A stretch of 38,486 bases of DNA. It comes from an uncultured SAR86 cluster bacterium (GTDB taxonomy: Bacteria > Pseudomonadota > Gammaproteobacteria > Magnimaribacterales > D2472). Positions 7,065 to 35,052 of the stretch are shown in pieces (position 1 is the first letter of the stretch; every line of letters starts with the position of its first letter). Where the stretch lies: NCBI GenBank assembly GCA_902558375.1, contig CACEDQ010000010.1, positions 1 through 38,486 of the forward strand. The letters run 5' to 3'. A model generated the notes under the pieces. That model was not told the DNA's origin. It searched no databases and worked only from the letters and a program-made list of their open reading frames with translations. A program made the position numbers and the translations under genes.

Positions 7065-8030
7065 ATGTTTAAACAAAGCTTAACATTTATTACTGTATTT
7101 TTATTAGCTATCCTTTCAAGCTGCGCTGGATCTGATAATAATTTCAAGAAAAATTTTTTAACTGAAAATGATATTAGAGAAACTCTGAGAAAAAATGAAT
7201 TAAAACTAAATTATTTAACAAATGATAAGAATAAAGAATATTTTATATCTTCGTTATTAGAGTCAGGCTATAAATTTAATATTGTTTTTGATGGCGATGG
7301 AAAAAAGCTTAGAGATAGATTAACAGAATCTAATCTTTCATTTTTTTGTAATAGTTTTTTAGATGATCAGTTATATCATCTCGAAAATATACTTTTTTAT
7401 AATAATAATTCTAAAGAAAAGCTTTTAGTTGCATTCAGCAATGAATATGAAAATAGAATAAATACTTTAGAGGAAAAATATCCTGAAGTTAGATTTTTTT
7501 TAATAAGCAATAACTTTGATGCCTTTTCACAGAAAATAACAGGAATTGAATCAAGTTTGAAAAGACTAAATGGTCTGGAATCATTAGATAGAAATATCAC
7601 TATTAATCATAACCCAAGAGAAAGAAAAGATTTTAATAAGATCTTTTTCTTAACTAGCTATGATATTGGTAAAAGTCTTGTTCCAATTTTTAGAAGTTAT
7701 TTAATAAATACTGAATTTTATTCAACTACTGAACTATTAATGGGAGCATCTTCATTAAAAGAACTTAATGATTTTGAAAATGTAATAATTCCTGTACCAA
7801 ATTACCTTTTTAAAGAAATTTCATTAAATAAAGATATTAAAAGTATTGAGGATGAGTTGAATAAGGCATTGATTGAAGACCTTATTTTAGCTGAAGGTAT
7901 ATATCAAAGTAACATTAGCAACATTAATATGATGTTTAACTCAGGAATTTCAAGAGTCTCAAAAGGACAATGTATTAATAGAACCCTTCCTTTATGGAAA
8001 GTATCTCCAGATACAACTAATCCTCTTTAA
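7065..8030 (+). CDS. LpoA-like outer-membrane lipoprotein (C-terminal domain only)
   Basis: LpoA is the outer-membrane lipoprotein that activates the peptidoglycan synthase PBP1A. From the ATG at 7065 the protein has 321 residues and begins with a lipoprotein signal ending at the lipobox LSSC (Cys about residue 20). An upstream in-frame start would bury the signal and is rejected. The C-terminal half contains a segment resembling the periplasmic-binding-protein fold of LppC/LpoA (region around KIFFLTSYDIGKSLVPIF) and a closing IxRxLPxW-like sequence. The large N-terminal TPR domain of E. coli LpoA (678 residues) is absent. Divergent rsmI supports the assignment because yraL/yraM are neighbours elsewhere. 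The call is moderate: similarity is weak and context carries weight. The 3' end overlaps sspA by 14 nt, tail to tail. Confidence 0.62.
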   Translation: MFKQSLTFITVFLLAILSSCAGSDNNFKKNFLTENDIRETLRKNELKLNYLTNDKNKEYFISSLLESGYKFNIVFDGDGKKLRDRLTESNLSFFCNSFLDDQLYHLENILFYNNNSKEKLLVAFSNEYENRINTLEEKYPEVRFFLISNNFDAFSQKITGIESSLKRLNGLESLDRNITINHNPRERKDFNKIFFLTSYDIGKSLVPIFRSYLINTEFYSTTELLMGASSLKELNDFENVIIPVPNYLFKEISLNKDIKSIEDELNKALIEDLILAEGIYQSNISNINMMFNSGISRVSKGQCINRTLPLWKVSPDTTNPL

Positions 8031-33404: not shown

Positions 33405-33962
33405 TTATACAAATGGCTTTGGTTCTTTTGAAAAAATCTTTTCAATCATAGGTACAAAATATTCTAAGGATTTAGTTTTATACTCTGGATCAAAAGATTT
33501 CTGATCCCAGTTAGCACAAAAATCAATACAGTCTTGATAATATGGATGGTCCTTATATTCATCTCTTAAATTTCTATCCTTGTCATAATGATGCATCCAG
33601 TAATAACCTTGGAACAAACCATGATTAAGAACTATCCAATAATTTTTTTCGCTTATATAAGGCCTTAAGAGTGCTGCAGAGACCTGAGAATGATTAGACG
33701 GTGAAATTACATCGCCAATATCATGAAGAAGAGCGCAAACAATAGTTTCAGTATCAGCTCCGTCTTCCTCTGCTCTTGTAGCCGTTTGGAGACAATGTTG
33801 TAATCTGCTAATTTTATAGGGCGACTCTCCATCCATCATCTTCAACCATTCAATAACTCTAGAAACTAAGTTTCTTTCATTTTCTGAATCGTGGATTGAT
33901 ATAAGGTCATAATCATCCCTTGTTCCTTTGTCCATAGATGTGAACTCAACTTTTTTAGTCAA
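33405..33962 (-). CDS. HD-domain mixed-valent diiron oxygenase candidate (PhnZ/TmpB-like)
   Basis: It has 185 residues with one HD domain. PhnZ and TmpB are HD-fold diiron oxygenases that cleave C-P bonds of alpha-hydroxyphosphonates to a carboxylate and phosphate. All six iron ligands can be placed: His56 (LQHCLQ), His80-Asp81 (LLHDIG), His91, His114 (VLNHGL) and Asp153 (NWDQKS); the spacing His56 to His80 (24) equals that of PhnZ H34 to H58. The PhnZ lid has Tyr at -10 and Glu at -7 relative to the first His; here Glu46 is at -10 and Tyr49 at -7. The start is TTG at 33962, chosen because AAGGAG lies 8 nt upstream; an ATG at 33935 is weaker. It follows the dioxygenase by 1 nt. Substrate unproven; a phosphohydrolase is the alternative. 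Confidence 0.7.
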   Translation of the reverse strand: MTKKVEFTSMDKGTRDDYDLISIHDSENERNLVSRVIEWLKMMDGESPYKISRLQHCLQTATRAEEDGADTETIVCALLHDIGDVISPSNHSQVSAALLRPYISEKNYWIVLNHGLFQGYYWMHHYDKDRNLRDEYKDHPYYQDCIDFCANWDQKSFDPEYKTKSLEYFVPMIEKIFSKEPKPFV

Positions 33963-33963
33963 T

Positions 33964-35052
33964 CTAATTACTCCTTTGAGACTGATACAAGACTAGATTA
34001 TTCTCAATGTTATCCATTTCATAGTAAGCATCTTGAAGGTGACGCTTTCCATCTGGTTTAAATTCCTGTCTACCATGAAGGACTCTGTGAGCAGAAACTA
34101 AAAGTATATGACCAGACTCTAATCTAAATTTTGATTTGTATTTATCACTATTCACTCTTGAACATAATTCATGATAAGCCCTGTAGAATAAATCTACATT
34201 TTCTAAGTTAGGATTTATCATTTGCATTAATTGATTTGAGTATCTAAAACCGACTACTTCTTTCTTTGAATTTAATCTAATGATTGGTTCAATAGCATAA
34301 GTTTCATTGTCTTCATCGAATTCTCTAAAAGGCACGGAGAAATTACATAAAATTTCAAAAAAATGTGGGTGCTGTTCTTTTAAATCGTTTAAAACTGAAT
34401 AACCATCAACAATCATTGATTCTCCACCCTTACAATCATTAACTAGCATATGAAGAGCTTGAACACTTGGTGGCCATGTATAACTTGCAAAGTCATTATG
34501 AGGCGGAACCTCAAGTGAAGTATGGGCTATGTTATATACATGTCCGTCTATAGAAACATTGTGAATTCTTTCAAATAAAACTTCTCTGATTGGACCAAGT
34601 CTAGGCGCAAGATTTTCTAAAGAGTTTGGAGTGGATGGTGCATTTTTAATGCATATTGCACCCTTAGTAATAAAATTAGTAAAGGCATCAATTGCAACAT
34701 TTTTATTATCTATAAACTCATTCCAATCGTAATATTCTGGAATAAAATCATTAGTCCATAAAATCTTTTCAGGCTTTCTAGATTTATTCAAATTTTCAAG
34801 TTCTGAAATATTTATAGATGTTTCGTGATTATCAGGCCATTCGATAATTACTATATCTTTATCAATAACAACTTTTTTTGGTTTTAAATCAACTGAAACT
34901 GCATTTAACATAAATCTTTTTTCTTGAGTTTCTTGAACTCTGCATTGATCACAGGAGCAGTTATCTCTTATCCACAAATATGGAAGATTATATTGGTCTT
35001 CTTTATTCTTGATGATTTTTAATGAGCTTTCATTCATCGTAAAATCTAACAT
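33964..35052 (-). CDS. Gamma-butyrobetaine-hydroxylase-like Fe(II)/2-oxoglutarate dioxygenase (TmpA-like candidate)
   Basis: It has 362 residues. The N-terminal GBBH-type zinc domain (about 15-95) shows LWIRDNCSCDQCR with Cys32, Cys34 and Cys37. The TauD-fold catalytic domain has the iron facial triad His185 and Asp187 (PPHNDFASY) and His326 (AHRVLHGRQEF), with the 2-oxoglutarate Arg nearby. Relatives hydroxylate quaternary-amine substrates: gamma-butyrobetaine, trimethyllysine, and in TmpA 2-(trimethylammonio)ethylphosphonate. Pairing with an HD-domain oxygenase gene 1 nt downstream favours a TmpA-like role over carnitine synthesis. GGGGGTAG Shine-Dalgarno before the ATG at 35052. Function is inference from family and context. 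Confidence 0.75.
   Translation of the reverse strand: MLDFTMNESSLKIIKNKEDQYNLPYLWIRDNCSCDQCRVQETQEKRFMLNAVSVDLKPKKVVIDKDIVIIEWPDNHETSINISELENLNKSRKPEKILWTNDFIPEYYDWNEFIDNKNVAIDAFTNFITKGAICIKNAPSTPNSLENLAPRLGPIREVLFERIHNVSIDGHVYNIAHTSLEVPPHNDFASYTWPPSVQALHMLVNDCKGGESMIVDGYSVLNDLKEQHPHFFEILCNFSVPFREFDEDNETYAIEPIIRLNSKKEVVGFRYSNQLMQMINPNLENVDLFYRAYHELCSRVNSDKYKSKFRLESGHILLVSAHRVLHGRQEFKPDGKRHLQDAYYEMDNIENNLVLYQSQRSN

Follow-up and report, generated by a model that had tools for sequence, protein, structure and literature searches.

The 38,486-nucleotide contig CACEDQ010000010.1 (assembly GCA_902558375.1; hereafter the window, meaning this whole stretch) of an uncultured SAR86 cluster bacterium carries, on its minus strand, a gene pair that appears to act like the phosphonate-cleaving TmpA/TmpB system, yet by none of the tests made is it TmpAB. 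The first gene (33964..35052), identified by profiles, a structure model and alignment, encodes a 362-residue Fe(II)/2-oxoglutarate (2OG) dioxygenase resembling gamma-butyrobetaine hydroxylase (GBBH), of a form called subtype I here, and the second (33405..33962, with a TTG start) encodes a 185-residue HD-domain protein predicted from profiles, fold and alignment to be a mixed-valent diiron oxygenase whose family is separate from PhnZ and TmpB. We propose, at about even odds (a probability near 0.5), that the two form an O2-dependent module that would hydroxylate a quaternary amine, its candidate substrate, and then cleave it, probably at a C-C bond, into the glycine-betaine pool.

The assignment of the HD protein as an oxygenase rests on its metal ligands and predicted fold. 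Pfam gives only the general HD domain (5.6e-7), and residues H56, H80, D81, H91, H114 and D153, all invariant columns in a 50-sequence family alignment, align with the ligands H34/H58/D59/H80/H104/D161 listed for PhnZ in PMC7916636; the H...HD...H...H...D set of the HD oxygenases, and a YxxE loop that in PhnZ holds Y24 and E27, are given in PMC8177086. Across the 104 family rows of our tree the six ligands are kept, with one row gapped at the first. The only PDB matches of the single sequence were PhnZ and TmpB, and a 20-sequence profile returned these two and then weak other HD proteins; MIOX gave no sequence match in PDB at E up to 1 with either query. The AlphaFold model (predicted local distance difference test score, pLDDT, 96.1) was ranked closest to PhnZ and TmpB by Foldseek, and superposed on PhnZ with Z 17.7 (152 residues aligned, root-mean-square deviation 3.3 Å), on TmpB with Z 16.8 (154, 3.1 Å) and on MIOX with Z 11.6 (138, 3.2 Å), while the best match outside the HD oxygenases reached Z 8.6. 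The MIOX value says little by itself, since helical proteins with Z below about 13 may, as the structure tool cautions, share merely a common arrangement. Predicted fold and ligands together place the protein, we infer, with the HD oxygenases of the MIOX/PhnZ/TmpB class.

Within that class, the protein is neither a PhnZ nor a TmpB, as judged from cut-offs, replaced residues and a separate clade. It scored 48.7 bits under the Phn-HD model TIGR03276 (cut-off 214.6), 39.6 under the TmpB model NF049941 (cut-off 300) and 29.9 under the PhnZ1 model NF052439 (cut-off 300). Equivalents of PhnZ Glu27, His62 and Arg158 (roles for the latter two are described in PMC7916636) were present in all six Phn-HD-type control rows and in none of the 104 rows of the window's family; the window protein has Tyr49, D84 and A150 there. 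The family instead shows a signature of its own, with Tyr or Phe at position 49 in 101 of the 104 rows, Arg53 in 102, Asp84 in 100, Asn90 in 98 and Gln118 in all. Among 274 genomes of the class, none exceeded the TIGR03276 cut-off; six proteins, our Phn-HD-type controls, all fell below it at 174-210 bits, and the next best score, 41 bits, belonged to the window-type HD family. A TmpAB control locus (L059) passed both cut-offs (TmpA 590.6/400, TmpB 350.1/300) and a second (L066) just missed that of TmpB (290.8/300), these being the two of the six control rows that were scored with the TmpB model (L164 and L163 represent the same genes as L059 and L066, respectively).

The dioxygenase likewise combines a familiar fold with sub-threshold family scores. 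It matched the Pfam domains GBBH-like_N (PF06155, 1.3e-8) and TauD (PF02668, 1.2e-32) and, in PDB, human GBBH (6e-40) and TmpA (1e-27), which are equal fold matches for its AlphaFold model (pLDDT 93.3; template modelling scores, TM, 0.90 and 0.91). Alignment to human GBBH identifies zinc ligands C32, C34, C37 and H76 (C38/C40/C43/H82 in the human enzyme), with the Cys-rich codons at 34942..34959 and the H76 codon at 34825-34827 on the minus strand, and the iron ligands H185, D187 and H326 of an HxD...H triad (H202/D204/H347). Bit scores were 229.1 under the GBBH model TIGR02409 (cut-off 414.75), 209.5 under the TmpA model NF049936 (cut-off 400) and 172.1 under the trimethyllysine hydroxylase (TMLH) model TIGR02410 (cut-off 268.3). 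GBBH Asn191 is kept as Asn174, rather than the Asp that TMLH carries there (Asp231; PMC7764450), and Asn292 is replaced by Ser272. A subtype I motif, F-x-R-I-H ... Y-N-[IV]-A-H-T ... P-H-N-D-F-A-S-Y, is found in most type I rows. Cut-offs and residues thus rule out plain membership of the GBBH or TMLH families, and on its sequence the window dioxygenase is neither TmpA nor a true GBBH.

The pairing recurs. An HD-family match was found in 41 of 61 relatives, and among the 30 loci fetched, which cover the HD matches in part, at least 13 genomes have the pair, making 13/61 a lower bound; in the other 17 fetched loci (HD proteins 47-51% identical) there was no GBBH-like gene within about 1.5 kb on either side. 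The 274-genome class sample held an HD match in 25 genomes, four of them weak. A wider scan of genome collections confirmed at least 533 loci. Among the best 80, which were analysed further, 51 have a GBBH-like gene immediately ahead of the HD gene, a single locus (L092) has a relic of one, and 28 have none. The 51 paired loci comprise 28 assigned to type I or to Ib, its actinobacterial form, hosted by SAR86, SAR92, Porticoccaceae, Woeseiaceae, SAR324 and actinobacterial metagenome-assembled genomes (MAGs), and 23 of a SAR11 type II; the marine strain HTCC2207 (L077) also carries the pair. Recurrence in at least 13 of 61 relatives and in 51 of 80 loci argues that the pair is not due to chance. 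Two scans of viral contigs, which reach close relatives only, found no relative. The relic in L092 is a 52-residue remnant of a dioxygenase C-terminus within the 160 nt that immediately precede the HD gene at 8001, which suggests that the dioxygenase was lost there and the HD gene kept.

Phylogenies separate both proteins from the characterised enzymes. In a quick tree of the HD proteins (140 reading frames, 104 rows after near-identical ones were dropped), in which long branches meet and the inner order is rough, the window protein falls in a 45-row clade (Shimodaira-Hasegawa-like approximate likelihood ratio test, SH-aLRT, 98) of 25 paired rows and 20 labelled unpaired, one of which, L110, is so labelled because its HD gene is split into two frames, the dioxygenase being in fact present. 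The six Phn-HD-type rows stand apart on long branches (SH-aLRT 100). In the dioxygenase tree, which carries long-branch warnings and has as its GBBH reference one human sequence on a long branch, types I and Ib group together (100/100), separately from TmpA, human GBBH and a second SAR11 dioxygenase, and the SAR11 type II enzymes, that of a plasmid (L002) and convergent genes of L063 and L064 form another clade (99/95). All members of the latter also adjoin HD-family genes, so two separate dioxygenase branches are each tied to the HD family. Among 23 type I/Ib pairs, dioxygenase and HD distances are correlated (Mantel r 0.83; none of 5000 permutations as high), a value that includes species relatedness and that shared genome ancestry would likewise produce.

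Much of the original prediction, made from the letters of the window, therefore stands: a GBBH-like dioxygenase with a zinc domain and an iron triad aligns ligand by ligand with human GBBH; the small HD protein 1 nt later has its six diiron ligands; a two-gene oxidative module is borne out by fold and recurrent pairing; an oxygenase is favoured over a phosphohydrolase by the Z values above; and the streamlined, probably marine host is SAR86-like, with a genome of 1.0 Mb. The checks it proposed gave a co-occurring pair, a dioxygenase on a branch separate from human GBBH with a score under the cut-off, and an HD protein outside the PhnZ and TmpB cut-offs, apart from the Phn-HD-type rows and sharing the fold of the HD oxygenases.

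The neighbourhoods of related loci point to betaines more than to phosphonates. With marker thresholds set by hand, and among loci that are mutually related and in several cases short, genes for SoxA/SoxB or FAD-GcvT fusion proteins occur in 23 of 57 non-SAR11 loci (type I 9/28, HD-only 13/28, relic 1/1) and in none of 23 SAR11 loci, which instead hold carnitine dehydrogenase (17/23) and BKACE (18/23) genes. SoxB was present in 16 of the 57, in 15 at 600 bits or more, a level reached by 20 rows in 24 of the locus genomes (71.6 Mb in all), which puts it in about 0.5% of random 16.5-kb stretches; because the loci are related to one another, we attach no p-value to this comparison. The HD gene of Woeseiaceae and related MAGs, whether or not the dioxygenase accompanies it, often lies between a RACo corrinoid-activation gene and an FAD-GcvT fusion gene plus soxB/soxA, with MttB-family, MtgC-like and methyltetrahydrofolate methyltransferase genes ahead of it; SoxA, SoxB and the methyltetrahydrofolate methyltransferase exceed their cut-offs. 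In SAR86, locus L071 has the pair among genes for an FAD-GcvT fusion, DmdA-like proteins, S-(hydroxymethyl)glutathione dehydrogenase and formate-tetrahydrofolate ligase, L072 has the same gene clusters, and an 85%-identical FAD-GcvT fusion gene lies on another contig of the window's own genome. In one SAR324 locus (L143), a PhyH gene and a Rieske gene (best model GbcA, 162/670, far under the cut-off) come after the pair, and another (L142) has a BKACE gene. No phosphonate-pathway gene was a best match among the annotated neighbours, and the PhnD family (TIGR01098), to which the search was limited, had no match in the 61 relatives, many of whose genomes are incomplete, while the control gave a match in 8 of 14 genomes.

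Several observations weigh against the proposed betaine-type module. The trimethylammonium cage described for human GBBH in PMC4497603 (Y177/W181/Y194/Y205) is altered to F160/H164/H177/F188 in the window dioxygenase, which would allow for a substrate that lacks a trimethylammonium group; among 14 type I rows, His177 and Phe188 are each found in 13, L143 deviating at both, and the remaining compared cage and Asn positions are identical in all 14. The 28 of 80 loci with an HD gene and no dioxygenase (three of them, L136, L140 and L141, with a short upstream stretch of 359-590 nt) indicate that the dioxygenase is not essential to HD function. In the Woeseiaceae-type operons, the MttB-family (261/525 bits) and MtgC-like (196/370) proteins are under their cut-offs, so the methyl donor need not be glycine betaine and could be another betaine. 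The SAR86 DmdA-like proteins also fall short (394 and 269 of 410), and a true SoxB is missing from the L071 genome (best E 2e-7). The pair of the window and of its nearest congeners is flanked by prmC-like and selO-like genes and stands apart from betaine genes, and 18 of 28 type I loci, including the window's nearest relatives L067-L069, show none of eight demethylation markers.

The nearest competing explanation, which we consider unlikely, is a gamma-butyrobetaine/carnitine route in which an alcohol of the carnitine type is formed by the dioxygenase and split by the HD enzyme into glycine betaine and a C2 acid, so that carnitine dehydrogenase and BKACE are replaced. GBBH is the best of the three models for the window dioxygenase, Asn174 is kept, and HD-only operons could take environmental L-carnitine directly; carnitine dehydrogenase matches (E up to 1e-60) occur in 3 of 13 type I genomes against 10 of 14 dioxygenase-less ones, the relic included (Fisher p 0.02, uncorrected for relatedness). 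The GBBH score nevertheless lies far under its cut-off, Asn292 and the cage are changed, and the carnitine dehydrogenase cut-off was passed in just 2 of the 28 genomes compared, which are incomplete; since SAR11 loci hold the HD pair along with carnitine dehydrogenase and BKACE, the pair cannot be only a substitute there. Another explanation, which we regard as very improbable, assigns the SAR11-type pair to a trimethyllysine route, with 3-hydroxytrimethyllysine cleaved to a gamma-butyrobetaine precursor, and the window pair to a different amino-acid or sulfonium substrate. The Asp at the GBBH Asn191 position in SAR11 L113 and plasmid L002, as in TMLH, and the aldehyde dehydrogenase and carnitine-to-glycine-betaine genes adjoining the SAR11 pair favour it; L113, however, scores lowest to the trimethyllysine model (186/268.3) and highest to TmpA (346/400), and the window type has Asn at that position. 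That the HD enzyme generally stands in for choline dehydrogenase was also considered and is unsupported, BetA exceeding its cut-off in 6 of the 14 dioxygenase-less genomes (relic included).

A divergent TmpAB, hydroxylating 2-trimethylaminoethylphosphonate or another phosphonate and then cleaving the C-P bond to give phosphate and glycine betaine, seems improbable as well, even though PhnZ and TmpB are the closest solved relatives of the HD protein, TmpA is an equal fold match for the dioxygenase, and a glycine-betaine product would account for the demethylation neighbours. TmpA is moreover the best-scoring model, under the cut-off of 400, for the paired dioxygenases of SAR11 (L113, 346), the plasmid (L002, 347.5) and an actinobacterium (L101, 244). 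Set against these points are the window's own scores (209.5/400 and 39.6/300) beside those of control L059, the absence of PhnZ Glu27, His62 and Arg158 from all 104 family rows, the lack of PhnD-family matches in the 61 relatives, and the lack of phosphonate genes as best matches among the annotated neighbours; with the PhnZ residues replaced and the PhnD family missing, a C-P bond is a less likely target than a C-C bond. Membership of TmpA/TmpB or PhnZ, to which the original prediction leaned, was accordingly not borne out. Of the yield it foresaw, phosphate and/or a betaine, the betaine agrees with the neighbourhoods, and C-C cleavage is favoured over phosphate release from a quaternary amine by the failed cut-offs, the replaced residues and the 0/61 count. 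Its statement that PhnY/PhnZ and TmpA/TmpB pair exactly these two families holds better for TmpA/TmpB than for PhnY/PhnZ, PhnY being a PhyH-type enzyme and not GBBH-like, and its caution that the substrate may be something else was well placed. Least probable of all is that the HD protein is a phosphohydrolase cotranscribed by happenstance: Pfam recognises just the general domain and HD hydrolases share much of the ligand pattern, but the fold gap (Z 16.8-17.7 for PhnZ/TmpB against at most 8.6 outside the HD oxygenases) and the single-sequence matches rule against it, as does the repeated pairing with two separate dioxygenase branches.

Returning to hydroxylation followed by C-C cleavage, from the observed pair, ligands, predicted folds, recurrence and neighbourhoods we would draw the oxygenase activity, bond, substrate and product as follows. 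The dioxygenase, as its family suggests, would hydroxylate a small quaternary-ammonium compound or related methylated zwitterion at an unactivated carbon. The mixed-valent diiron centre of the HD protein, whose class is assigned by fold and ligands, would then abstract hydrogen from the new CH-OH carbon and oxidatively cut the bond next to it, C-C in all likelihood, so that the carbinol carbon becomes a carboxylate. Glycine betaine or a close N-methylglycine would be the most likely product, passed on to corrinoid-dependent demethylation, FAD-GcvT fusion demethylases and sarcosine oxidase. The HD enzyme might also work without the dioxygenase, on a substrate already hydroxylated. The 28 dioxygenase-less genomes (27 HD-only, that of L084 left aside, and the relic) have no close copy of the dioxygenase elsewhere, and five have any match (at best 103 bits, 29% identity); these matches include the relic of L092 and one in the L141 genome (L149) that groups with TmpA. 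Since HD-only genes are common and no close copy is found elsewhere, the hydroxylated compound must also reach the HD enzyme another way, for example from the environment; carnitine is a candidate for it.

Compared with known systems, the closest parallel is TmpA/TmpB of Leisingera caerulea, which convert 2-trimethylaminoethylphosphonate to glycine betaine and phosphate (PMC10574752, PMC8177086). Gene order, fold pairing (a GBBH-like dioxygenase, then an HD diiron oxygenase) and the likely betaine product are alike; the window proteins differ in lying far below the equivalog cut-offs, in lacking the E27, His62 and Arg158 equivalents, in having zinc ligands where TmpA has none, and in having related loci with betaine-demethylation rather than phosphonate genes. 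PhnY/PhnZ, acting on 2-aminoethylphosphonate, and the fused fungal PhoF (PMC10574752) share the hydroxylate-then-cleave logic, and the window HD fold is nearest to PhnZ; the Phn-HD-type rows lie on their own side of the tree, and the window protein scores 48.7 against 214.6 bits. A fused frame is seen here too (L115:6960-8507), a single 515-residue frame joining dioxygenase and HD protein in one MAG; this is weak evidence, and the fusion may reflect deletion or misassembly because about 25 joint residues (counted by eye) are missing relative to the separate genes. GBBH itself (BBOX) shares the fold (TM 0.90), zinc site, iron triad and Asn191, and differs in score (229 against 414.75 bits), cage (F/H/H/F), Asn292 (Ser) and branch, the last judged against one human reference. 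MIOX is an HD diiron oxygenase that cuts a C-C bond (PMC8177086); it shares the class and fold (Z 11.6), without a sequence match, and the window HD protein is smaller. Corrinoid glycine-betaine demethylation (MtgB/MtgC) followed by sarcosine oxidase has its counterpart in the SoxA/SoxB or FAD-GcvT genes near the HD gene in 23 of 57 non-SAR11 loci, and the main text of PMC12478193, on the marine-bacterial MtgB/MtgC route, contains none of the terms "HD domain", "TauD" or "phosphohydrolase".

At the locus itself, 1 nt separates the dioxygenase stop codon (33964-33966) from the TTG start of the HD gene (33960-33962) on the minus strand, and a ribosome-binding site, AAAGGAG (33971..33977, minus strand, read from the sequence), lies within the end of the dioxygenase gene, 8 nt ahead of the TTG, a position that suggests coupled translation. 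Upstream of the pair are what we take to be prmC-, prfA- and hemA-like genes and, downstream and convergent, presumably a selO-like gene. The window belongs to a 1.0-Mb genome given as 72% complete, and its nearest named loci are SAR86, where the HD protein is 98% identical.

Other settings of the family were seen in passing. In SAR11 (Pelagibacterales), an island at L113:430-8549 and its equivalents hold the HD pair beside a second GBBH-like gene (313/414.75 bits) and genes for carnitine dehydrogenase (395/414), BKACE, aldehyde dehydrogenase and acetoacetate-CoA ligase, an apparent route from gamma-butyrobetaine through carnitine to glycine betaine. The Pseudomonas aeruginosa plasmid pF045_1 (L002, 1094-10826) carries a dioxygenase-HD pair with genes for a choline-type binding protein, choline dehydrogenase and aldehyde dehydrogenase, near an 837-residue double CaiB-type CoA-transferase gene. 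Near the pair, L071:5400-6263 and its cluster mates in L072, L075 and L078 encode a conserved protein of 276-293 residues, the L071 copy of which has no Pfam or NCBIfam match. In Porticoccaceae-type loci (L079, L080, L085, L110), a conserved set comes after the pair, namely an ABC transporter gene and genes for proteins of about 606 and 144 residues, with the transporter call and the finding of no NCBIfam match for the former protein taken from the L079 copy. A larger HD family (about 35-50% identical; L023-L039 and plasmid loci L003-L010) has no GBBH-like neighbour; its annotated plasmid neighbours include class II aldolase, alpha/beta hydrolase and sterol desaturase genes, and its members are possibly further oxygenases with other substrates.

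More tentatively than for the module itself, we suggest that an undescribed family of HD diiron oxygenases may cleave the C-C bond next to a hydroxyl in betaine-type osmolytes and feed glycine betaine to demethylation, with two GBBH-like branches recruited to supply the hydroxyl. We recognised no description of the window-type HD family among titles and abstract openings of the open-licence literature, with long listings covered in part, which falls short of proving that none exists. Glycine betaine, carnitine, dimethylsulfoniopropionate and other methylated zwitterions rank among the sea's important currencies of carbon and nitrogen. If the proposal is true, SAR86, SAR11, SAR92, SAR324 and Woeseiaceae would have in common a cofactor-light, O2-driven entry route to glycine betaine. 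Such a module, as a second widespread partnership between a 2OG dioxygenase and an HD oxygenase among abundant, streamlined marine bacteria, would extend this chemistry beyond C-P bonds and caution against counting window-type pair genes as phosphonate degraders. A large family that is now annotated merely as HD-domain proteins or phosphohydrolases would gain a function.

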